The notes under the pieces: model-generated
The model's database searches: none
Told to the model about the DNA's origin: nothing
The model's input: the letters and a program-made list of their open reading frames with translations, nothing else
Origin: Methylibium petroleiphilum PM1
GTDB lineage: Bacteria; Pseudomonadota; Gammaproteobacteria; Burkholderiales; Burkholderiaceae_C
Reading direction: 5' to 3'
Length of the DNA stretch: 64,000 bases
NCBI RefSeq assembly: GCF_000015725.1
Contig: NC_008825.1
Location: 2,418,001-2,482,000, forward strand
Program-made: the position numbers and the translations under genes
In this document: piece after piece, positions 13,574 to 52,886 of the stretch
How the letters are laid out: the number at the start of each line of letters is the position of its first letter
Position numbering within the stretch: position 1 is the stretch's first letter

Positions 13574-14580
13574 CGGGCGGCTCCTTGGCTGGGGGTGTGG
13601 GGGTCGTGGGCGGCGAGCGCGATCTGGCCGGGCGCGGTGACGACGTGCAGGGCGCCGGCGGAGCCGGCCACGAGCATGGAGCGGGCGTCGAGCACGGCGC
13701 CGGCTGCGAGGTAGGCGGGCGGGACGAGGCCGTGGTCGAAGCGTTCCCAGGTGTCGCCTCGCTTGACGACCATGAGGCCGCCTCCGCCGAGGCCGTAGAG
13801 TTCGTCGCCCTGGCGCAGCAGGGTGTACATGGGGGCGGCGGCGCGGTTGTCCTGGGCGCGCCAGGTCTTGCCGCCGTCGGCGGTGTGCCAGATGACGCCG
13901 CCCAGGCCGCTGGTCCAGCCGTTCGAGCGGTCGGTGAAGACGGTGGCGTAGGGGTAGAAGTCGCCGGGGATGGGGGCTTGCTTGACCCAGGTCTTGCCGG
14001 CGTCGGCGCTGGTGAGGACGGTGCCGAATTCTCCGGTGACGACGGCGTGCTGGTCGTCGATGAACTGGAGGGTGGTGAGGAGCGCGTCTTCGTCGAAGTC
14101 GCGGGCTTCCCAGGTCTGGCCGCGGTCGGCGCTGGAGAGGAGCGTGGTGTGGCTGCCGGCCACCCACAGGCGTCCGTCGGGGGCGCAGGCGATGGCCATG
14201 GGGTTGATCTTGCCGGGCAGGGGTCGCGCGCTCCATTGCTGGCCGGCAGCGTCGCCGATCCAGACTTTGCGGTAGAAGTCCAGGCCGATGAAGCTGCCGT
14301 CGGCGCAGGCGGTCAGGGCAATGACGGAGGCCGGCGAGGCCAGGCGCTGGCGGCTCCAGCTGCGCCCCGCATCGGCCGAGCTGACCAGCGCCCCGCTCGC
14401 GGTCCCCGCCACCAGGACCTTGCCGTTGCTCGACGCGGACTGGAAGGTGTCGGACCTCAGCACAGACTTCTCGCGCTCAGCCATCACCGCACTGAAATCA
14501 GGCGCCTGCATGCAGCCGCTCAGACCTTGCAGACCAAGGAGCAGCAGCAATGCGCTCAGGCCTCGGCGGATCGTGTTCAT
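13570..14580 (-). CDS. YCF48/BNR-repeat lipoprotein
   Basis: Predicted beta-propeller lipoprotein. The 336-residue product starts with a lipoprotein signal ending in LSGC (C23). It has at least four Asp-box repeats of the S/T-x-D-x-G-x-T/S-W type: SSADAGRSW, SSADRGQTW, TSADAGKTW and TADGGKTW. It is encoded 35 bp after dmpH and overlaps the MMPL gene by 4 bp. Such YCF48-like proteins accompany MMPL, DUF1302 and DUF1329 genes in many catabolic clusters, where an assembly or adaptor role is suspected but not shown. Confidence 0.88.
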   Translation of the reverse strand: MNTIRRGLSALLLLLGLQGLSGCMQAPDFSAVMAEREKSVLRSDTFQSASSNGKVLVAGTASGALVSSADAGRSWSRQRLASPASVIALTACADGSFIGLDFYRKVWIGDAAGQQWSARPLPGKINPMAIACAPDGRLWVAGSHTTLLSSADRGQTWEARDFDEDALLTTLQFIDDQHAVVTGEFGTVLTSADAGKTWVKQAPIPGDFYPYATVFTDRSNGWTSGLGGVIWHTADGGKTWRAQDNRAAAPMYTLLRQGDELYGLGGGGLMVVKRGDTWERFDHGLVPPAYLAAGAVLDARSMLVAGSAGALHVVTAPGQIALAAHDPHTPSQGAAR

Positions 14581-14615
14581 GGGTGTCTCGTCTCTCTCGT
14601 TCTTCTGTTCAGGTC

Positions 14616-15404
14616 TCAGACGAAGCGCATCGACACGCTGCCGAGATCCTGGAAACGCACGTTGACCGCGTCGCCCGCCTCGACCGCGATCGCCTCGGTG
14701 ACGCCGCCGGTCATGATGAAAGTGCCGGCCGGGATTTCCTGCCCGCGGGCACCGAGGTGGTTGGCCAGCATCGCCACCGCCGCCGCCGGATGGCCCAGCA
14801 CCGCGGCGCCGGCCGCCATCGCGACGACCTGGCCGTTCTTCTCGAGCACCACGCCGAGCGTGCGCAGGTCGAGCTCGGCCAGGTCGCGCATGCGCCCGCC
14901 GACGACGAAGCGCGAGGCCGAGGTGTTGTCGGCCACCACGCTCTTCAGGTCGAACTTGAAGTCGCGGTAGCGCGAGTCGATGATCTCGACCGCCGGCACC
15001 ACGAAGTCCACCGCGGCGAGCACGGCGCCGACGTGGCAGCCCGGGCCTCTCAGCGGCGCCTTGGTGACGATGCAGATCTCGGCTTCCACCTTCGGGTGGA
15101 TCAGCTCGGAGGCCTGGATCTCGCCGCCGTCGGGCCGGCTCATGTAGTCGCTGACGAAGCCGAACACCGGGCTGGTCACGCCCATCTGCTTCATCTTCGC
15201 GAACGAGGTCAGGCCGGCCTTCAGGCCGACGGTCTTGTGGCCGCGCGACTCCTTGCGACGACGGATCTCGTCCTGGATCGCGTAGGCGTCGTCCCAGTCC
15301 ATGCCGGGAAAGTCGTCGGTGATCTTGGTGACGTCGCGCGCCTGCAGTTCGGCCGTTTCCAGGTGCTCGGCGAGCTGGGCGATGGTCTTGGCATCGAGGT
15401 TCAT
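14616..15404 (-). CDS. dmpH: 4-oxalocrotonate (2-oxo-3-hexenedioate) decarboxylase
   Basis: Mg-dependent decarboxylase of the meta pathway that forms 2-oxopent-4-enoate and works in complex with hydratase DmpE. The 262-residue product belongs to the hydratase/decarboxylase family, with the metal-ligand segment VEAEICIV and the downstream VVPAVEIIDSRY. I prefer ATG 15404 over the upstream ATG at 15422 because GGAAGAA lies just before it and the N terminus then matches DmpH. It follows dmpE with a short gap and is paralogous to it. Confidence 0.93.
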   Translation of the reverse strand: MNLDAKTIAQLAEHLETAELQARDVTKITDDFPGMDWDDAYAIQDEIRRRKESRGHKTVGLKAGLTSFAKMKQMGVTSPVFGFVSDYMSRPDGGEIQASELIHPKVEAEICIVTKAPLRGPGCHVGAVLAAVDFVVPAVEIIDSRYRDFKFDLKSVVADNTSASRFVVGGRMRDLAELDLRTLGVVLEKNGQVVAMAAGAAVLGHPAAAVAMLANHLGARGQEIPAGTFIMTGGVTEAIAVEAGDAVNVRFQDLGSVSMRFV

Positions 15405-15418
15405 GTCGTTTCTTCCGC

Positions 15419-16204
15419 TCATTCGACGAAGCGCACCGAGGTACTGCCGAGGCCCCCGACGCTGCAGTACAGGCTGTCGCCGGCCACCACCGGCACGAGC
15501 GGCGATTGCGAGCCCGACAGGATCACGTCACCGGCCTTCAGCGCGATGCCGAGACGGCCCAGCGTGTTGGCCAGCCAGGCCACGGCATTGACCGGCGAGC
15601 CCTGCACCGAGGCGCCGGTGGAGGTGCTGACGATCTCGCCGTTCTTCTCGAGCACCATGCCGGCCAGTGCGAGATCGAGACGGCGCGGATCCTTGCGCAC
15701 ACCGCCGAGCACCAGCACACCGCAGGAGGCGTTGTCGGCCACGGTGTCCTGGATCTTGATCTTCCAGTCCCTGATGCGCGAGTCGACGATCTCGAAGCAC
15801 GGCATCACGCAGTCGGTGGCGCGCAGCACGTCGGCCGCGGTGACGCCGGGGCCGATCAGGTCGCGCTTGAGCACGAAGGCCACCTCGGCTTCTGCCTTCG
15901 GCGCGATCAGCGTGCTCATGCGGACCGGCTCGCCCTCGTTGAAGGCCATGCCCGAGAGCAGGTGGCCGAAATCGGGCTGGTTGACCTTGAGCATGTCCAT
16001 CACGACCTTGCTCGTCACGCCGATCTTCTTGCCGATCACGGTCTCGCCGGCATCGAGCCGACGCTGGATCATGCGCAGCTGGATCTGGTAAGCGTCGTCT
16101 ATCGTGATCTCGGGTTCGCGCTCGGTCAGCGGCGCCACCGGCGTGCGATTCAGCAGCGCCTGGTAGAGCTCGTCGCCGTAGCCCTGGATGCGTTGGAGGT
16201 CCAT
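15419..16204 (-). CDS. dmpE: 2-oxopent-4-enoate hydratase
   Basis: Hydrates 2-hydroxypenta-2,4-dienoate to 4-hydroxy-2-oxopentanoate, the substrate of aldolase DmpG. The 261-residue product shows the family metal-binding segment KAEAEVAFVLKRDL and the following CFEIVDSRIRDWKIK. It is paralogous to DmpH encoded next to it. It lies 24 bp after dmpD; the order dmpC-D-E-H is a compact catabolic run before the envelope module. Confidence 0.94.
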   Translation of the reverse strand: MDLQRIQGYGDELYQALLNRTPVAPLTEREPEITIDDAYQIQLRMIQRRLDAGETVIGKKIGVTSKVVMDMLKVNQPDFGHLLSGMAFNEGEPVRMSTLIAPKAEAEVAFVLKRDLIGPGVTAADVLRATDCVMPCFEIVDSRIRDWKIKIQDTVADNASCGVLVLGGVRKDPRRLDLALAGMVLEKNGEIVSTSTGASVQGSPVNAVAWLANTLGRLGIALKAGDVILSGSQSPLVPVVAGDSLYCSVGGLGSTSVRFVE

Positions 16205-43181: not shown

Positions 43182-43292
43182 GCATCGGCTGCCCCTGCAC
43201 CCGAAACGACCGCAAAACTGTCACGCTTTGGTGCAGTTCGGCCCCACCGAGCTGCGGGTTGGCCTCCATGCACCGGTCGGGCGCTTTCCTCC

Positions 43293-43319
43293 TACACTGC
43301 TGCAGCGCACCAACGGTGC
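43293..43319 (+). promoter_or_regulatory. Possible promoter and operator of the PHB depolymerase gene
   Basis: A -10-like TACACT (43293-43298) is followed by CTGCAGCGCA. A 13-bp palindrome GCACC-AAC-GGTGC (43307-43319) lies about 75 bp upstream of the start codon. No good -35 is visible. The palindrome could bind a regulator at the start site; its identity is unknown. Confidence 0.3.
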
Positions 43320-43392
43320 ACGTTTGCGGCCTGCCGAACGGCGACCGCTCGGTGGCATCCGCGGGCCGAACGATCCGCCTCCGGGGAATTCC

Positions 43393-44427
43393 ATGCTCTA
43401 TCAGCTCTACGAGACCCAGCGCGCGCTGCTCAGCCCGTTCTCAGAGTTCGCCAGCGCCTCGTCCAAGCTCTACAGCCACCCGCTCTCCCCCTTCGCACAG
43501 GGCCCCGGGGCCCAGCGGCTGTCGGCCGGTTTCGACCTGATCCACCGGCTGACCAAGGAATACGAGAAGCCGCAGTTCGGCATCACCAGCATCCAGGTCG
43601 ACGGCATCGACGTGGTGGTGCAGGAGAACGTGGCGATCGAGAAGCCCTTCTGCAAGCTGCTGCGCTTCAAGCGCTACACCGACGACGCCCGACTGCTGAC
43701 CCGGATGCGCGACCAGCCGAGCGTGCTGGTCGTGGCGCCGCTGTCGGGCCACCACTCCACGCTGCTGCGCGACACCGTGCGCACGCTGCTCAAGGACCAC
43801 AAGGTCTACATCACCGACTGGATCGACGCCCGCAAGTCGCCGACCGCGGTGAACAACCTGGCGATGAACAAGAGCATCGAGTGGTTCGAGCACAACGTGA
43901 TCTACCGCGTGCCGCCCAACTACCCGGGCGCGGGCCGGCTGGTCTACCCGGGCTTCCTGCAGCACAGCGGCTTCGTCGCGATGAACCCGGACCGCCACAT
44001 GACGGCCCACTACGACTACTTCCTCGACCTGGTGCGAGGCGACGACGACAGCGCCGACGCCCACCGCGAGTTCTACGACGAGTACAACGCCGTGCTCGAC
44101 ATGCCGGCCGACTACTACCTCGAGACCATCAAGACCGTGTTCCAGGACTTCGCGCTGGTGAACGGCACCTGGCGCGTCGCGGGCGAGCCGGTGCGCCCGC
44201 AGGACATCAAGACCACCGCGCTGCTGACGGTGGAAGGCGAGCTCGACGACATCTCGGGCGCCGGCCAGACCGCCGCGGCGGTGGACCTGTGCGCCGGCAT
44301 CCCCAAGGCGCGCAAGCGCCACTACGAGCTCAAGGGCGCCGGCCACTACGGCATCTTCGCCGGCCGTCGCTGGCGCGACTTCGCCTACCCCGAGATCCGC
44401 GACTTCATCGCGAAGCACCACAAGTGA
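43393..44427 (+). CDS. phaZ: Intracellular polyhydroxyalkanoate depolymerase with internal in-frame deletion
   Basis: Homologue of Cupriavidus necator PhaZa1, which mobilises PHB granules using a Cys183-Asp355-His388 triad. The 344-residue product matches from [10 protein letters not shown] to the C terminus. D285 and H318 keep the exact 33-residue spacing of Asp355 and His388, and both are offset by 70. The segment that should contain the Cys nucleophile (VCQP-type) is absent: after DWIDAR (142-147) the protein continues directly with KSPTAVNN, which in the full-length enzyme follows a second IDAR. No other cysteine is at the right place. Recombination between the two IDAR-coding repeats would give this. 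The product is probably inactive, or the assembly collapsed here. Confidence 0.85.
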
Positions 44428-45110
44428 ACGCGCTCCAGCGCCCCGCCGACGCGCCGGACGCGCGGCAGGCAGCGCTGGCCGACGCGATCGACGCCGCGCT
44501 GCCGCAGACGCAGTGCACCCGCTGCGGCGAACCCGACTGCCGGCGCTATGCCGAGGCCGTGGCCGCCGGTCGCGCCGACATCAACCAGTGCCCGCCGGGC
44601 GGTGCGGAAGGCATCGTCCGGCTCGCGGCGCTGACCGGCCGCGCGGCGCTGCCGCTGAACCCTGCCAACGGCAGCGAGGGCCCTCGCCGGCTCGCCGTGA
44701 TCGACGAGACCTGGTGCATCGGCTGCACGCTGTGCATCAAGGCCTGCCCGGTGGACTGCATCGTCGGCGCGGCCAAGCAGATGCACACCGTCGTCGAATC
44801 GCAGTGCACCGGCTGCGAGCTGTGCATCCCCGTGTGCCCGGTCGACTGCATCTCGCTGGAGGACGCCACGCAGACCACCGGCTGGGCCGCCTGGTCACCG
44901 GCCGAGGCCGACGCGGCGCGCGCCCGCTACACCGCGACCACCCGGCGCCGCGAGCGGGGACGGCGCGAGCACGACGAGCGGCTCGCCGCGAAGGCCGCGC
45001 ACAAGCTGGCCCACCTGGACACCGAGACGAAGCCCGGCAACGCCGACGAGACCGCCCGCAAGCGCGCCGTCATCGAAGCCGCGATGGCGCGCGCACGCGC
45101 GCGGCGTTGA
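44424..45110 (+). CDS. rsxB: RnfB/RsxB-like Fe-S electron-transfer protein
   Basis: Cytoplasmic Fe-S protein of 228 residues. An N-terminal four-Cys cluster domain ([12 protein letters not shown]...CPPGG) is followed by two [4Fe-4S] ferredoxin motifs, [15 protein letters not shown] and [15 protein letters not shown], and a basic helical tail. It lacks the N-terminal membrane anchor of RnfB, and no other rnf genes are near. GTG 44424 overlaps the stop of the depolymerase gene by 4 bp, so translation is coupled. Short RnfB-like proteins next to nth are common in Burkholderiales, possibly supplying electrons or clusters to the Fe-S protein endonuclease III. Confidence 0.88.
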
Positions 45111-45112
45111 TG

Positions 45113-45305
45113 TGAGCCCCCGGCCGCGGCGTACCGCGGCCACCCCCCGCGGGAGTCTCGGCCGGCTTGGGGCGGCCCGGCGCTCGGCCGATGAATACAG
45201 GTGAGCCCCCGGCCGCAGCGTACCGCGGCCACCCCCCGCGGGGGTCTCGGCCGGCTTGGGGCAGCCCGGCGCTCGGCCGATGCATACAGGTGAGCCCCCG
45301 GCCGC
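45113..45305. repeat. Tandem 88/89-bp GC-rich repeat, two and a bit copies
   Basis: Unit 1 (45113-45200, 88 bp) and unit 2 (45201-45289, 89 bp) differ at only a few bases, and a third truncated copy starts at 45290. Each starts GTGAGCCCCCGGCCGC and ends CGATG-A/C-ATACAG. The array fills the gap between rsxB and nth. It has no coding signature and looks like a dispersed intergenic repeat family copied in tandem. Confidence 0.85.
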
Positions 45306-45334
45306 CGCCCCCGGCCCTGCCAGAATGCGCGGCC

Positions 45335-45973
45335 ATGAAGCCTGCCGATGTCGAGACCTTCTTCGCCACCCTGAAGGCGGCCAATCCGCAGCCGGCGAGC
45401 GAACTGGTCTACAGCTCGGTGTTCGAGCTGCTGGCCGCCGTGCTGCTGTCGGCACAGGCCACCGACGTGAGCGTGAACAAGGCGACTCGGCGGCTGTTCG
45501 CGGTGGCGCCGTCGCCGCAGCGGATGCTGGCGCTCGGCCTCGACGGCGTCATCGAGCACATCAAGACCATCGGCCTGTTCCGCAGCAAGGCGAAGCATCT
45601 GCTCGAGACCTGCCGCCTGCTGATCGAGCGGCACGGCGGCCGGGTGCCGCGCTCGCGCGAGGCGCTGGAGGCCCTGCCCGGCGTCGGCCGCAAGACCGCC
45701 AACGTGGTGCTGAACGTGGCCTTCGGCGAACCGACGCTGGCGGTCGACACCCACATCTTCCGGGTCGGCAACCGGACCGGCCTGGCGCCGGGCAAGACGC
45801 CGCTGGCGGTGGAGCTGAAGCTGCTGCAGCGCGTGCCCGCGGCCTACCTGGAAGACGCGCACCACTGGCTGATCCTGCACGGCCGCTACGTGTGCCAGGC
45901 GCGCAAGCCGCGCTGCTGGGACTGCGCGGTCGCGGACGTGTGCGACTTCCGGCCCAAGCCCCCCCGGCCCTGA
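45335..45973 (+). CDS. nth: Endonuclease III
   Basis: Bifunctional DNA glycosylase/AP lyase removing oxidised pyrimidines in base excision repair. The 212-residue product has the helix-hairpin-helix LPGVGRKTANVV with the catalytic lysine, the catalytic Asp in AVDTHIFRVGNR, and the C-terminal [4Fe-4S] loop CQARKPRCWDCAVADVC. ATG 45335 lies just after the tandem repeat and gives the normal length. The reading frame itself runs further upstream through the repeat. Confidence 0.96.
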   Translation: MKPADVETFFATLKAANPQPASELVYSSVFELLAAVLLSAQATDVSVNKATRRLFAVAPSPQRMLALGLDGVIEHIKTIGLFRSKAKHLLETCRLLIERHGGRVPRSREALEALPGVGRKTANVVLNVAFGEPTLAVDTHIFRVGNRTGLAPGKTPLAVELKLLQRVPAAYLEDAHHWLILHGRYVCQARKPRCWDCAVADVCDFRPKPPRP

Positions 45974-46039
45974 CCGGCCGCGTCTGCAGGCTATCCTCCC
46001 TCACCACAGCATCTGCCGCACTTCCAACCGGAGCCCTCG

Positions 46040-46507
46040 ATGACCTTCACGCCGACCCTGCGCGCCTGCCTCGCCCTGCTGTGCCTGGCCGCCGCCGCGA
46101 CCGCCGGCCGCGCCGAAAGCTTCGCGTCGTCGGCCTCGAGCGCCGGCTCCGCCTCGTCGGGCAGCGTGTCCGACTCGCTGCACGGTTCGAGCAACAGCTC
46201 GTCGCGCGACAAGGAGGTGGCCGAGGGCGACTACCGCATCCTCGAGGTCGCCGAGCTGCCCGAACGCCCCGGCCTGCTGCGGCTCACCCTGCAGGCGGCC
46301 CTGCCGCGCGACGACGCGCGCGCCTTCTTCCTCGACGTGCCGCGCCAGACGCTCGCGCAGCACCGCCTGGGTCGCGGCGACGTGCTCAGCGCACGCCACC
46401 GCCCCTACGGCCTGGAGTTCGCGCTCGCGCAGACACGCGAAGCCTTCTTCCTGGTGTTGCGCGACGACTGGCAACGCGAGCTGCCGCCGCACGCCGTGGC
46501 GCTTTGA
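46040..46507 (+). CDS. Exported protein of unknown function paired with DUF2145 gene
   Basis: Small exported protein of 155 residues. Signal peptide (LRACLALLCLAAAATAGRA), then a Ser/Ala-rich low-complexity stretch (about residues 25-55). A compact C-terminal domain follows with GDYRILEVAELPERPGLLRLTL and ending LPPHAVAL. I do not recognise a named domain. Its stop overlaps the next gene's likely TTG start, implying that the two products are made together. Confidence 0.75.
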   Translation: MTFTPTLRACLALLCLAAAATAGRAESFASSASSAGSASSGSVSDSLHGSSNSSSRDKEVAEGDYRILEVAELPERPGLLRLTLQAALPRDDARAFFLDVPRQTLAQHRLGRGDVLSARHRPYGLEFALAQTREAFFLVLRDDWQRELPPHAVAL

Positions 46508-47436
46508 CGGCCGGGTGGCGCGCGCGGGCGCTGGCGGCCGGGCTATGGGCCGGTGCGGCGGCCGGCTGTGCGCTGGCGGCACCGTCAGACGCCTCGCGTT
46601 TCTGCGACCGCCCCACCTCGCTCACCGCTCGGCAGCAGGACCGGCTGCTGCGCTTCGCCGCCGTGGTGCGGCAGGAGCTCGACACCTCCGGCCGCACGGT
46701 GGCGCTGATCTCTCGGTCGGGCCTGGACCTGAGCCGCTTCGACGTGCGTTACTCGCATGCCGGCATCAGTCTGCAAGCCAGCGAGAACGGGCCCTGGTCG
46801 GTACGCCAGCTCTACTACGCCTGCGATGAGTCGCGGCCCCGGCTCTACGACCAGGGGCTCGCCGGCTTCCTGTTCGGCACCGACGATCCGGCGATCGGCC
46901 ATGTGTCCATCGTGCTGCCGCCGCCGGCCGAGGCGGCAACGCTGGAACGCGCAGCGCTCGACAAGGCGCTCGCGCTGCGCCTGCTGGCGGAGCGCTACAG
47001 CGCCAACGCGCACCCCTACGGCCTGCGCTACCAGAACTGCAACCAGTGGGTGATGGAGCTGCTGGCCACGGCCTGGGGCGCGCTGGACCGTGGGCGCGAC
47101 GGCAGCCCCGAGGCGCGCGCCCGCGCGCAGGCCTGGCTGGCCGAACAGGGCTACGCGCCGGCGCCGCTGCAGGTTGGCTCGCAGCTGCTGATGTTCGCCG
47201 CGCACTTCGTGCCCTGGGTGCACCTCGACGACCATCCCGCCGAGGACCGCTATGCGCTGCAGTTCCACATCAGCATGCCGGCGTCGATCGAGGCCTTCGT
47301 GCACAGGCGGCTGCCGGAGGCCGAGCGCATCGAGCTCTGTCACGACGAACGGCAGGTCGTCGTTCGCCGCGGCTGGCAGCCCATCGGAGCGGCCTGCGAG
47401 CCCGGACCGGGAGACCGGGTGGTCGCACTCGACTGA
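46504..47436 (+). CDS. DUF2145 family exported protein (TTG start)
   Basis: Exported protein of 310 residues with a signal peptide (AGLWAGAAAGCALAAP) and a DUF2145 domain. The domain shows DVRYSHAGISL, a conserved YQNCNQWVMELLA segment with Cys/Asn/Gln, and LMFAAHFVPWVHLDDH. The Cys-His-Asn pattern recalls NlpC/P60-like enzymes, but this is not proven. No in-frame ATG or GTG exists before the domain. TTG 46504, overlapping the upstream stop (TTGA), is the only start that keeps the signal peptide. Confidence 0.82.
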   Translation: MTAGWRARALAAGLWAGAAAGCALAAPSDASRFCDRPTSLTARQQDRLLRFAAVVRQELDTSGRTVALISRSGLDLSRFDVRYSHAGISLQASENGPWSVRQLYYACDESRPRLYDQGLAGFLFGTDDPAIGHVSIVLPPPAEAATLERAALDKALALRLLAERYSANAHPYGLRYQNCNQWVMELLATAWGALDRGRDGSPEARARAQAWLAEQGYAPAPLQVGSQLLMFAAHFVPWVHLDDHPAEDRYALQFHISMPASIEAFVHRRLPEAERIELCHDERQVVVRRGWQPIGAACEPGPGDRVVALD

Positions 47437-47495
47437 GCGACTGGCCTCGTTCCGTCCTACCATCCTGGCCGGAGACCGCAAGGAGGCTCATCGCC

Positions 47496-48080
47496 ATGAC
47501 CCGCGTCCGCCCCGGCAAGCTTGCGCACGTTCTCTACCGGACCCGCCGCTTCGAGGAGATGCTGGCGTGGTACCGGGTCGTGTTCGACGCCCGGATCCAG
47601 CAGCAGAGTCCGGCGCTGGCCTTCCTGACCTACGACGACGAGCACCACCGCTTCGCATTCGCCAATCTGGCACTGCTGCAGCCCGAGGGCGAGACCGAGA
47701 AGACCGGCCTGATCGGCATCGATCACGTGGCCTACGGCTACGCCTCGCTGCACGACCTGTTCCAGAACTACGTGCAGCTCAAGTCGCTGGGCATCACGCC
47801 CTACTGGTGCGTCCACCACGGCGTGACGGTGTCGATGTACTACGCCGACCCCGACGGCAACCAGATGGAGTTCCAGGTGGAGGCCTTCGCCTCGAAGCAA
47901 GAGGCCAACGCCTTCATGCGCGGGCCGGTGTATGCCGCCAATCCGCTGGGCGTCGAGTTCGACCCGGACGACTGGCTCGCGCGGCTGGCGGCCGGGACGC
48001 CCGCGTCGGACCTGCTCGTGCGACGGGAGCACGTGCCGATGTCACCGATCCGAGGGGCGGTGGAGCGCCGGGGCCTGTAG
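47496..48080 (+). CDS. VOC-family protein, extradiol dioxygenase-like
   Basis: Single-domain-pair VOC protein of 194 residues resembling type III biphenyl-2,3-diol 1,2-dioxygenases. Candidate metal ligands are the His in KLAHVLYRT, the His in GIDHVAYGY or VHHGVTVS, and the Glu in NQMEFQVEAF. A substrate cannot be inferred. AAGGAGG lies close upstream of ATG 47496. Its 3' end overlaps the end of the convergent cobC-like gene by 39 bp. Confidence 0.85.
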   Translation: MTRVRPGKLAHVLYRTRRFEEMLAWYRVVFDARIQQQSPALAFLTYDDEHHRFAFANLALLQPEGETEKTGLIGIDHVAYGYASLHDLFQNYVQLKSLGITPYWCVHHGVTVSMYYADPDGNQMEFQVEAFASKQEANAFMRGPVYAANPLGVEFDPDDWLARLAAGTPASDLLVRREHVPMSPIRGAVERRGL

Positions 48081-48641
48081 ACGCCACAGGATCACCCGAC
48101 GTCCGTAGCCCGGCGCCTTCGGCCACGTGGCGGCCGTCGGAGCGTGCGCCTCACCGAGCGCCAGCCAGACCGCGGCGGAGAGCCAGCCCCCGTGCGTGAC
48201 CAGCAGCGCCGCGGGCGCCCGCGCGTGCACCGCCCGCACCCTCGACAGCAACACTCGCACGGACTCGCCGCCGCCCGGCGCATGACCGACAAGGTCCGCC
48301 GACCAGGCCGCGATCTCGGCCGCGTCGATCGCCTCCCAGCAGCGCCCGTCCCAGCGGCCGAAGTCCAGCTCGGCGAGCTGCGCATCGACCACGTGACGGA
48401 AGCCGAAGCGCCGCAGCCAGCGGCCCACGTCGCGGCAACGTGCCAGCGGCGAGGTCGCGACCGCACGCGGCAGACCCTCGCGGCGCGCGATCGCGCGGAT
48501 GCGGTGCGCCAGCCGCTTGGCCTTGCGGCGATCGACCGGCAGGTCCGTGCGGGCGCCGATGCAGCGGCCCGCGGCACCCTTCGGCGCCGGGTGGCGCCAG
48601 GCGTGCATCAGCGGCGCCGGACGCTCAGCATCGACGCTCAT
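48042..48641 (-). CDS. cobC: Histidine phosphatase family protein (CobC-like alpha-ribazole phosphatase)
   Basis: Probable phosphatase of cobalamin lower-ligand assembly. The 199-residue product has a phosphoglycerate-mutase fold. An N-terminal catalytic motif WRHPAP replaces the usual RHG; ARTDLPVD, a Glu/Asp in LDFGRWDGR and VTHGGW with the second His follow. ATG 48641 overlaps the cobS stop by 4 bp. The frame continues upstream inside cobS without homology. The assignment as CobC rests mainly on operon context. Confidence 0.82.
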   Translation of the reverse strand: MSVDAERPAPLMHAWRHPAPKGAAGRCIGARTDLPVDRRKAKRLAHRIRAIARREGLPRAVATSPLARCRDVGRWLRRFGFRHVVDAQLAELDFGRWDGRCWEAIDAAEIAAWSADLVGHAPGGGESVRVLLSRVRAVHARAPAALLVTHGGWLSAAVWLALGEAHAPTAATWPKAPGYGRRVILWRLQAPALHRPSDR

Positions 48642-50524: not shown

Positions 50525-52051
50525 TCAATCCTTCCCGGGTTCGGCGTCGGCCAGCAGCCGCATCAGCGCGCCCGGCTCGAAATGCCGGTCGATGAAATCG
50601 GCCAGTCCGTCGAACACCGACTCGAGGCCGCGCACGCGCGCACCGAACAGCGCGCGCAGCACCTCGGTCGATTCGAACAGGCCGTGCGCGTAGAGGCCCA
50701 GCACGCTGCCCTGCTGCCAGCCGATGGCTTCGCCCTCGGCATTGCGCAGCGCCACCGCCGCCGCCGGCAGCGCCGGGTGCTGCACGCTGCGGCCGTGGCG
50801 GATCTCGTAGCCGCCGAACTGCACGCCGCGCAGCATGCTCCATTCGTCTCCCACACCATCAAAGCAGGCGTCGGTGCGGCGCAGCAGCTTGTCGGGCTCG
50901 AAGGCCGTGACCAGCGGCAGCAGGCCCAGCCCCGGCGCATTGCCCTCGCCGTTCTCGCCCTCCACGCCGTGCGGGTCGACCAGCGCCTCGCCCAGCATCT
51001 GCAGGCCGCCGCACAGCCCGAGCACCGGGCGGCGCGCGGCGGCATGGCGCGCCAGCGCCGCGTCGATGCGCTGCTCGCGCAGCCAGGCCAGGTCGCCGCT
51101 GGTGTGCTTGGAGCCGGGTAGCACGATCCAGTCGGCGCCCGCCAGCTCCTCCGCGCTGCGCGCCCAGCGCAGCTGCACGCCGCGCAGCTGGCGCAGCGGC
51201 TGGAACTCGTCGAGGTTGCTGATGCGCGGGTAGGCCACGACGGCGATGCGCAGGCTGGCCGCGGCATTGCCGGCGCCGCGCTGCCAGCCGGGACCCTCGT
51301 CGTGCAGGCCGTCTTCCTCGGGCAGTCCGTGGCCGCGCCACATCGGCAGCACCGCGAGGGTCGGCACGCCGGTCAGCGCCAGCAGCTGCTGCGGTCCCGG
51401 TTCGAGCAGCCGCGCGTCGCCGCGGAAGCGGTTCAGCACATAGCCCCGCAGCAGTGCGCGCTCCGCCGCCGGCAGCAGCTGGTGCGTGCCGTAGAGGTGG
51501 GCGAACGCGCCGCCACGGTCGATGTCGCTCACCAGCAGGCAGGCGGCCCGCGCCGCCTGCGCGGTGCGCATGTTGACGTAGTCGCTGGCGTGCAGGTTGA
51601 TCTCGGCCGGCGAGCCGGCGCCCTCGATCACCACCACGTCGTTCTCGGCCATCAGCGCCAGCAGCGCGTCCTGCGCGAACGGCCACAGCCGCTCGCTGCG
51701 CTCGCGCCACGGCACGGCCGCGAGGTCGGCACGCACCTCGCCCAGCACGACGACCTGGCTGCCGGTGTCGTTCTCGGGCTTCAGCAGCACCGGATTCATG
51801 CGCACGTCGGGCAGCACCCGGGCGGCCAGCGCCTGGAAGTACTGCGCGCTGCCGATCTCGCCGAGCCGGCCCCCGCTGCCCGGCACCACGCGCGCGTTGT
51901 TGCTCATGTTCTGCGCCTTGAAGGGCGCGACCTTCAGGCCCTGACGCGCATACCAGCGGCACAGCGCCGTCGCCAGCCAGCTCTTGCCGGCCCCGCTGGT
52001 GGTGCCGAGCACCATGACAGCCCGCGCGGGCGATCGTGTGCGTCCGTTCAT
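50525..52051 (-). CDS. cobQ: Cobyric acid synthase
   Basis: Glutamine-dependent amidase of four peripheral carboxylates of the corrin ring. The 508-residue protein has the N-terminal P-loop VLGTTSGAGKSWL, APFKAQNMSNNA, and the C-terminal GATase domain with nucleophile Cys in LGLCGGLQMLG and His in GLYAHGLFES. ATG 52051 is 4 bp after the ATPase gene stop. Its presence with cobU, cobT and cobS suggests that corrinoid precursors are amidated and completed in this strain. Confidence 0.95.
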   Translation of the reverse strand: MNGRTRSPARAVMVLGTTSGAGKSWLATALCRWYARQGLKVAPFKAQNMSNNARVVPGSGGRLGEIGSAQYFQALAARVLPDVRMNPVLLKPENDTGSQVVVLGEVRADLAAVPWRERSERLWPFAQDALLALMAENDVVVIEGAGSPAEINLHASDYVNMRTAQAARAACLLVSDIDRGGAFAHLYGTHQLLPAAERALLRGYVLNRFRGDARLLEPGPQQLLALTGVPTLAVLPMWRGHGLPEEDGLHDEGPGWQRGAGNAAASLRIAVVAYPRISNLDEFQPLRQLRGVQLRWARSAEELAGADWIVLPGSKHTSGDLAWLREQRIDAALARHAAARRPVLGLCGGLQMLGEALVDPHGVEGENGEGNAPGLGLLPLVTAFEPDKLLRRTDACFDGVGDEWSMLRGVQFGGYEIRHGRSVQHPALPAAAVALRNAEGEAIGWQQGSVLGLYAHGLFESTEVLRALFGARVRGLESVFDGLADFIDRHFEPGALMRLLADAEPGKD

Positions 52052-52055
52052 CGTC

Positions 52056-52886
52056 TCAGGGCGCCGCGTCAGCAGGCAGGTGGGGCACGGTGATGTAGCG
52101 CTGCACGCCGCCGGGGCTCGGCAGCGGCTCGATGCGCAGCGCGCCGTCAAACACGTCGACCAGCGCGTGGTGCAGCGCCGGATCGTCGTGCTCGCCCTCG
52201 GCGCGCAGGCGCCCGGCCTGCAGCACCACCAGCCGGTCGGCCTGCAGTGCCAGCGGCAGGTCGTGCAGCACGCTGACCACCGTGTGGCCGCGCGCCAGCC
52301 GGCGCAGGAGCCGGACCAGCGCCACCTGGTGCGGTGGGTCGAGGTGGGTGGTCGGCTCGTCGAGCAGCAGCACCGGCGCACGCACTGCCAGCGCGCGCGC
52401 CAGCAGCACGCGCTGGCGCTCGCCGCCCGACAGCTCGTGCAGGCGGGCGTGCTGCCAGGCACTGCACTCGGTGGCGGCCATGGCCTCGTCGACGATGGCC
52501 TCGTCGGCCGGCCCCGGCAACGCGAACAGGCCGAGCTGCGGCAGGCGGCCGAGCTGCACCGTCTCGCGCACCGTGAGGTCGCCGCTGGTGTCGCCCTGCT
52601 GCGCCAGCCAGGCGATGCGCCGTGCGCGCTCGCGTGCCGGCCATTCGGCCAGCCGCCGCTGCTGCAGCCACACGCTGCCGCGCGCCGGCGTCAGCAGCCC
52701 GGCCAGCGTGCGCAGCAGCGTGGACTTTCCGGCTCCGTTGGGGCCGACGATGGCGGTCCAGCCCGGTTCCAGGCTCAGCGACAGGTCGTGCAGCACCGGG
52801 TGGTCGCCCAGCGCGACCTGCAGGCCGTCGGCGCGCAGGGTCGGGCCCGGCCCGCCTGTCTCGCGCGGCGCGACCGGCGCGTTCAT
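52056..52886 (-). CDS. btuD: Cobalamin ABC transporter ATP-binding protein
   Basis: ATPase of the B12/iron-siderophore class importer. The 276 residues show Walker A GPNGAGKST, Q-loop AWLAQQ, signature LSGGERQRVLLAR, Walker B VLLLDEPTTHLD and H-loop VLHD. The N-terminal extension of about 15 residues precedes the ABC core. It overlaps btuC by 4 bp and lies in the riboswitch-controlled operon, which favours cobalamin as the substrate. Confidence 0.92.
   Translation of the reverse strand: MNAPVAPRETGGPGPTLRADGLQVALGDHPVLHDLSLSLEPGWTAIVGPNGAGKSTLLRTLAGLLTPARGSVWLQQRRLAEWPARERARRIAWLAQQGDTSGDLTVRETVQLGRLPQLGLFALPGPADEAIVDEAMAATECSAWQHARLHELSGGERQRVLLARALAVRAPVLLLDEPTTHLDPPHQVALVRLLRRLARGHTVVSVLHDLPLALQADRLVVLQAGRLRAEGEHDDPALHHALVDVFDGALRIEPLPSPGGVQRYITVPHLPADAAP

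Follow-up and report, generated by a model that had tools for sequence, protein, structure and literature searches.

Deletions between short direct repeats, including those that arise by slippage at microhomology, constitute a known class of events. The depolymerase gene described here resembles that class in that both endpoints of its deletion lie in similar short arms about 207 bp apart, and differs from it in that the arms are imperfect in the nearest relative and the mechanism is read from sequence alone. The gene product is of the PhaZa1 type, the intracellular nPHA-scl depolymerases without a lipase box (TIGR01849, PF06850). In the sections of the cited papers available to us, the PhaZ family is described as having a catalytic cysteine instead of a lipase box (PMC2666664), and overexpression of either of two phaZ genes is reported to restore PHB use in a quadruple mutant of Ralstonia eutropha (PMC3430594); a third paper, in its available part, deals with PhaC and other depolymerases (PMC3227634). 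Among the matches listed for phaZ deletions with direct repeats, the titles and the beginnings of the abstracts describe no such deletion.

We analysed a 64,000-nt stretch of the Methylibium petroleiphilum PM1 genome (NC_008825.1, positions 2,418,001 to 2,482,000), which is called the window below. It carries a short phaZ coding sequence on the plus strand (43393..44427; 344 codons plus stop) without the catalytic cysteine segment. The encoded protein scored 464.2 bits against TIGR01849, in two stretches, where the curated cut-off is 300.75, and 312.8 bits against PF06850 (PHB_depo_C) over residues 144-342, where the cut-off is 27. On these two matches the gene is of the intracellular PHB depolymerase type. 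The protein is similar to PhaZa1-type enzymes on both sides of a gap and has the N-terminus, the C-terminal domain and the Asp and His of the triad in common with them, whereas 69 residues with the catalytic cysteine, and apparently two sheet strands, are gone. The codons of Asp285 (44245..44247, plus strand) and His318 (44344..44346, plus strand), the triad acid and histidine by position, align with those of Asp354 and His387 in the orthologue from G001, the reference genome used throughout. Retention of these two residues had been proposed in an earlier sequence-only reading of this DNA and is borne out by the alignment; the PhaZa1 residue numbers used in that comparison are those given in the reading itself. 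The 210 bases upstream of phaZ (43183..43392, plus strand) align to G001 without gaps at 94% identity (12 differences in 210 bases), much like the coding part and no better conserved than it. Downstream lies a ferredoxin-type gene with Fer4_21 and FeS domains (44424..45110, plus strand), whose GTG start overlaps the phaZ stop by four bases (GTGA) in the window and in G001 alike.

To define the lesion, the gene was compared with its relatives. G001, the nearest genome compared, belongs to the same genus, shares about 92% DNA identity and is collinear with the window; four blocks of 91-93% identity cover 49,522 window bases. Its orthologue encodes 413 residues, and the codon alignment with the 344-residue window protein contains a single gap of 69 codons (207 bp), with TDW on its left and the second IDAR on its right. 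This confirms the in-frame loss of the nucleophile segment that the sequence-only reading had noticed. The long form is present in all five other genomes of the genus, leaving the short form in one of six. When 250 genomes of the family were sampled, 244 gave a match, and among the matches listed only the window's own genome gave a one-piece match over residues 1-344; the matches were sorted by E-value, and a one-piece short form would be expected near the top. This search for further short homologues had been set beforehand as a test of the reading. The comparison shows one in-frame 207-bp deletion, which took place in this genome's line of descent once it had separated from that of G001. The opposite polarity, in which the short form is an old functional PhaZ variant and the long form of the genus is derived, is scarcely credible: the long form occurs throughout and is therefore ancestral by distribution, no other one-piece short form appeared among the matches listed, and we found nothing in favour of such a variant.

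Two family members have broken phaZ genes of other kinds. In G231 the gene is split over two frames and broken near residues 116-120 (G231:C1:2009732-2010968; L078, L084), and in G098 the match covers residues 236-410 alone. A separate piece in G022 (G022:C1:726335-726535) matches residues 1-67 of the window protein alone (76%). The phaZ of the same genome (L009) has the cysteine segment, with its first residues read as N, and the separate piece is perhaps a partial duplicate.

What the lost segment held was assessed in an alignment (A2) of 18 intact sequences, one of them the paralogue from the same genome. All 18 have Cys182, Asp354 and His387 (G001 numbering) without exception. The lost 69 residues contain the CQP motif with Cys182, along with 15 more invariant columns, so that the catalytic cysteine does lie in the missing piece as had been supposed. 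With this segment absent, the alignment shows that a Cys-Asp-His triad could not form in the predicted window product. A single-sequence search for a solved structure of the family gave no match at E 0.01. With the family profile, the lost segment aligned weakly (E 0.029) to the region of PhaC that carries the nucleophile (5hz2), and two lower profile matches to solved structures look like chance. On the alpha/beta-hydrolase topology, taken together with the weak PhaC match, the lost piece would comprise a helix, the nucleophile strand, a second helix and the next strand. The segment thus seems to hold strands of the central sheet, which makes a stable fold of the short protein doubtful; very probably, it does not fold as an active depolymerase. 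Structure prediction for the 344-residue protein (mean pLDDT 34.5, pTM 0.21) is not interpretable, because it was made from the single sequence without an alignment and without an intact control.

The genome encodes a second depolymerase of about 406-410 residues, which is intact and has the motif ICQPC. The search for such a gene, suggested by the sequence-only reading, was thus positive, and the paralogue is intact in G001 and G002 as well. No third PF06850 match was found in the genome, and PhaC_N (PHA synthase) was matched twice. PHB turnover, if it continues, would rest on the intact paralogue. Our main reading, to which we assign a probability of roughly 0.77, is that the window phaZ carries one recent in-frame 207-bp deletion and is predicted to be catalytically null, in a genome with an intact paralogue. 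Here, in a clear case from nature, a storage-polymer depolymerase has lost its nucleophile in one in-frame step. PHB work in this genus should not take the short PhaZ of this strain to be active; the paralogue is the target to test instead.

We then considered whether the short gene is decaying or constrained. Between the window and G001, phaZ has a dS of 0.16 and a dN of 0.020, a ratio of 0.122, which compares with 0.145, 0.191 and 0.177 in three neighbouring genes and 0.106 in the paralogue. When changes were polarised with four congeners, 15 synonymous and 7 nonsynonymous changes fell on the window branch and 13 and 7 on the G001 branch, with another 8 and 2 unresolved. Amino-acid changes are thus not in excess on the window branch, over the whole of which about 45 would be expected without constraint. 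Under a simple model, the unconstrained share of the branch had a median of 0.07-0.09 and a 95% upper bound of 0.24-0.32, the ranges reflecting the treatment of unresolved changes and of the control. The absence of other decay implies a recent deletion or else a stub that remains under constraint, and the counts fit both. If the stub is functionless, the deletion is recent relative to the split from G001.

These numbers bear on an alternative in which the short product persists without catalysis in a granule-bound or regulatory role, for example by binding polymer or phasin or by dampening the paralogue. The low ratio and the lack of excess amino-acid changes agree with it, as does the fact that the frame, the start, the upstream region, the Asp and the His are all kept. 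A recent deletion yields the same pattern, however, the apparent loss of central sheet strands makes a stable fold doubtful, and the short form is confined to one genome in six within the genus and to this genome among the matches listed from the 250-genome sample. We consider such retention unlikely. A more specific version, in which the PhaZ stub still meets granules or partners and modulates the paralogue, would make it a one-step pseudoenzyme with alpha/beta-hydrolase strands cut out between two copies of a motif, and this we regard as a slim prospect. The sequence-only reading had described the product as a granule-type protein without a nucleophile; the loss of the nucleophile stands, whereas a retained granule protein is one possible fate and a null allele the likelier one. 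In the null allele as we read it, both the reading frame and the four-base overlap with the ferredoxin-type gene are kept. The junction between the two genes is untouched since the deletion is in frame, and the downstream gene need not be disturbed.

The junction itself, GATCGACGCCCGCA (43821..43834, plus strand), extends from the last base of the W143 codon to the first base of the K148 codon, where 207 bp are absent relative to G001. In G001 the corresponding arms are GGTCGATGCCCGCA on the left and GATCGACGCCCGCA on the right, with 12 of 14 bases alike, and the left arm encodes DWVDAR, not DWIDAR. Both endpoints of the deletion thus fall within matching 14-nt arms, as expected of a direct-repeat deletion, and the arms encode nearly the same peptide, [IV]DAR. 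Within the genus the two arms stand 207 bp apart, and the other homologues examined have spacings of 207, 210 or 216 bp. A clean gap of 70 residues had been claimed; the gap is clean, but by these spacings 69 residues applies to the genus of the window, and 70 fits a homologue with 210 bp.

Exact homology between the arms is short in the genus. No run of at least 8 nt is shared in G001, G002 or G003, and 8 nt are shared in G004 and G005. The arms therein rank low among the exact direct repeats of the gene or fall below 8 nt, and the G001 phaZ contains longer exact repeats (up to 11 nt) elsewhere. An ancestor with the left arm of G001 would place the crossing to the left of ATC and leave a single base of exact homology; with ATCGACGC as its left arm, as in G004 and G005, the exact homology would be longer. 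Depending on the arms of the direct ancestor, this homology could therefore have measured as little as 1 nt or as much as about 14 nt. The likely cause would be slippage, or something similar, between two short arms that match in part, and a repeat-aided deletion is plausible. The claim that exact recombination between two IDAR repeats had removed the segment holds as far as the paired IDAR-type arms at the junction are concerned, but the exactness finds no support in G001 (12 of 14 bases, and no run of at least 8 nt), and the plausible mechanism had been overstated.

A scan for the junction pattern was made in the genome contigs of 84,980 species, a set that may lack records close to the window's genome. 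It found the junction in one further record, LFJI01000219.1 (locus L037) of Candidatus Burkholderia brachyanthoides UZHbot7. We take this organism to be a leaf-nodule symbiont of a plant. L037 is the sole locus in the UZHbot7 genome that matches the window protein, and it lacks the same segment at the same motif. Genes downstream of it resemble the ferredoxin-type gene and nth of the window. The pieces of its phaZ are spread over all three frames, so this pseudogene, with several frame changes, is plainly dead, in contrast to the window gene, which has no other lesion. The UZHbot7 genome is described, in the part of the source available to us, as a 3.5-Mb draft in 684 contigs (PMC4896955).

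Among the 31 genomes searched around UZHbot7, itself included, 24 gave a match, and in all 17 of the loci L042-L058 the frame is unbroken and the CQP motif present. In these Burkholderia-type relatives the arms are exact over up to 13 nt; in 9 of the 17 loci the gene has no longer exact direct repeat (ties counted), and in 7 the arms are exact over less than 8 nt. This ranking supports a putative weak spot at the arms in the Burkholderia-type relatives, not in the window's own genus. L037 lost this segment independently, between the corresponding paired arms, which have therefore been used twice. The occurrence of the same junction in a decaying phaZ supports the arms as the deletion site. Since the scan pattern was built on the window junction, other endpoints are invisible to it, and L037 gives no deletion frequency. 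With the same piece lost independently in a plant symbiont, the deletion resembles ordinary gene loss at a weak site, and the second loss marks the paired motifs as a possibly recurrent one. In another relative of the symbiont (G058:C23:104634-105878; L082, L083), phaZ changes frame and keeps the cysteine segment. Viral contigs searched by pattern for relatives gave five matching stretches, none of which was confirmed.

The shared junction also bears on whether the deletion is an artefact of assembly or culture, or a polymorphism confined to the sequenced isolate. The species is represented here by a single genome, and 44 of the 79 small gaps between the window and G001 are not multiples of three, a count over all such gaps, whether inside or outside genes and whichever genome is at fault. 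One long frame other than phaZ (14550-16088) also aligned over part of its length alone. Against these points, one-piece alignments to G001 cover at least 93% of the length of 30 of the 34 long window frames, the assembly consists of 2 contigs with a completeness of 100, and the same junction is present in another organism. For an assembly collapse, arms of at most 14 nt would be short. When the genome was searched at the DNA level with the G001 region, the lost segment did not turn up elsewhere in the assembly; the hits were the paralogue (72%), the short gene itself through its left flank, and two pieces of less than 50 bases, and the idea that the segment had moved was dropped. Given the short arms, the two contigs and the failure to find the segment elsewhere, an assembly artefact is unlikely, and for the artefact and isolate explanations together we see an outside chance.

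The 34 long frames were picked by a crude rule and possibly include wrong ones. The four not covered in one piece are phaZ, 14550-16088, 45280-47433 and 47252-48196. The second of these is a 513-residue frame whose one-piece alignment to G001 covers residues 1-287 alone, with a possible frame change in either genome. Between the ferredoxin-type gene and nth, the window has 168 bp (45142-45309) that are absent in G001 and consist of two similar GC-rich units. At 52027-52075, between genes that we take from resemblance to be btuD and cobQ/cbiP, G001 has a block of 1,979 bp that encodes two proteins, and the window has no such block. The products of the block are presumably CobD/CbiB-like and CobC-like, and a match to the CobD-like protein (60% identical over residues 22-310) is located on the second contig of the window's genome (C2:465872-466741).
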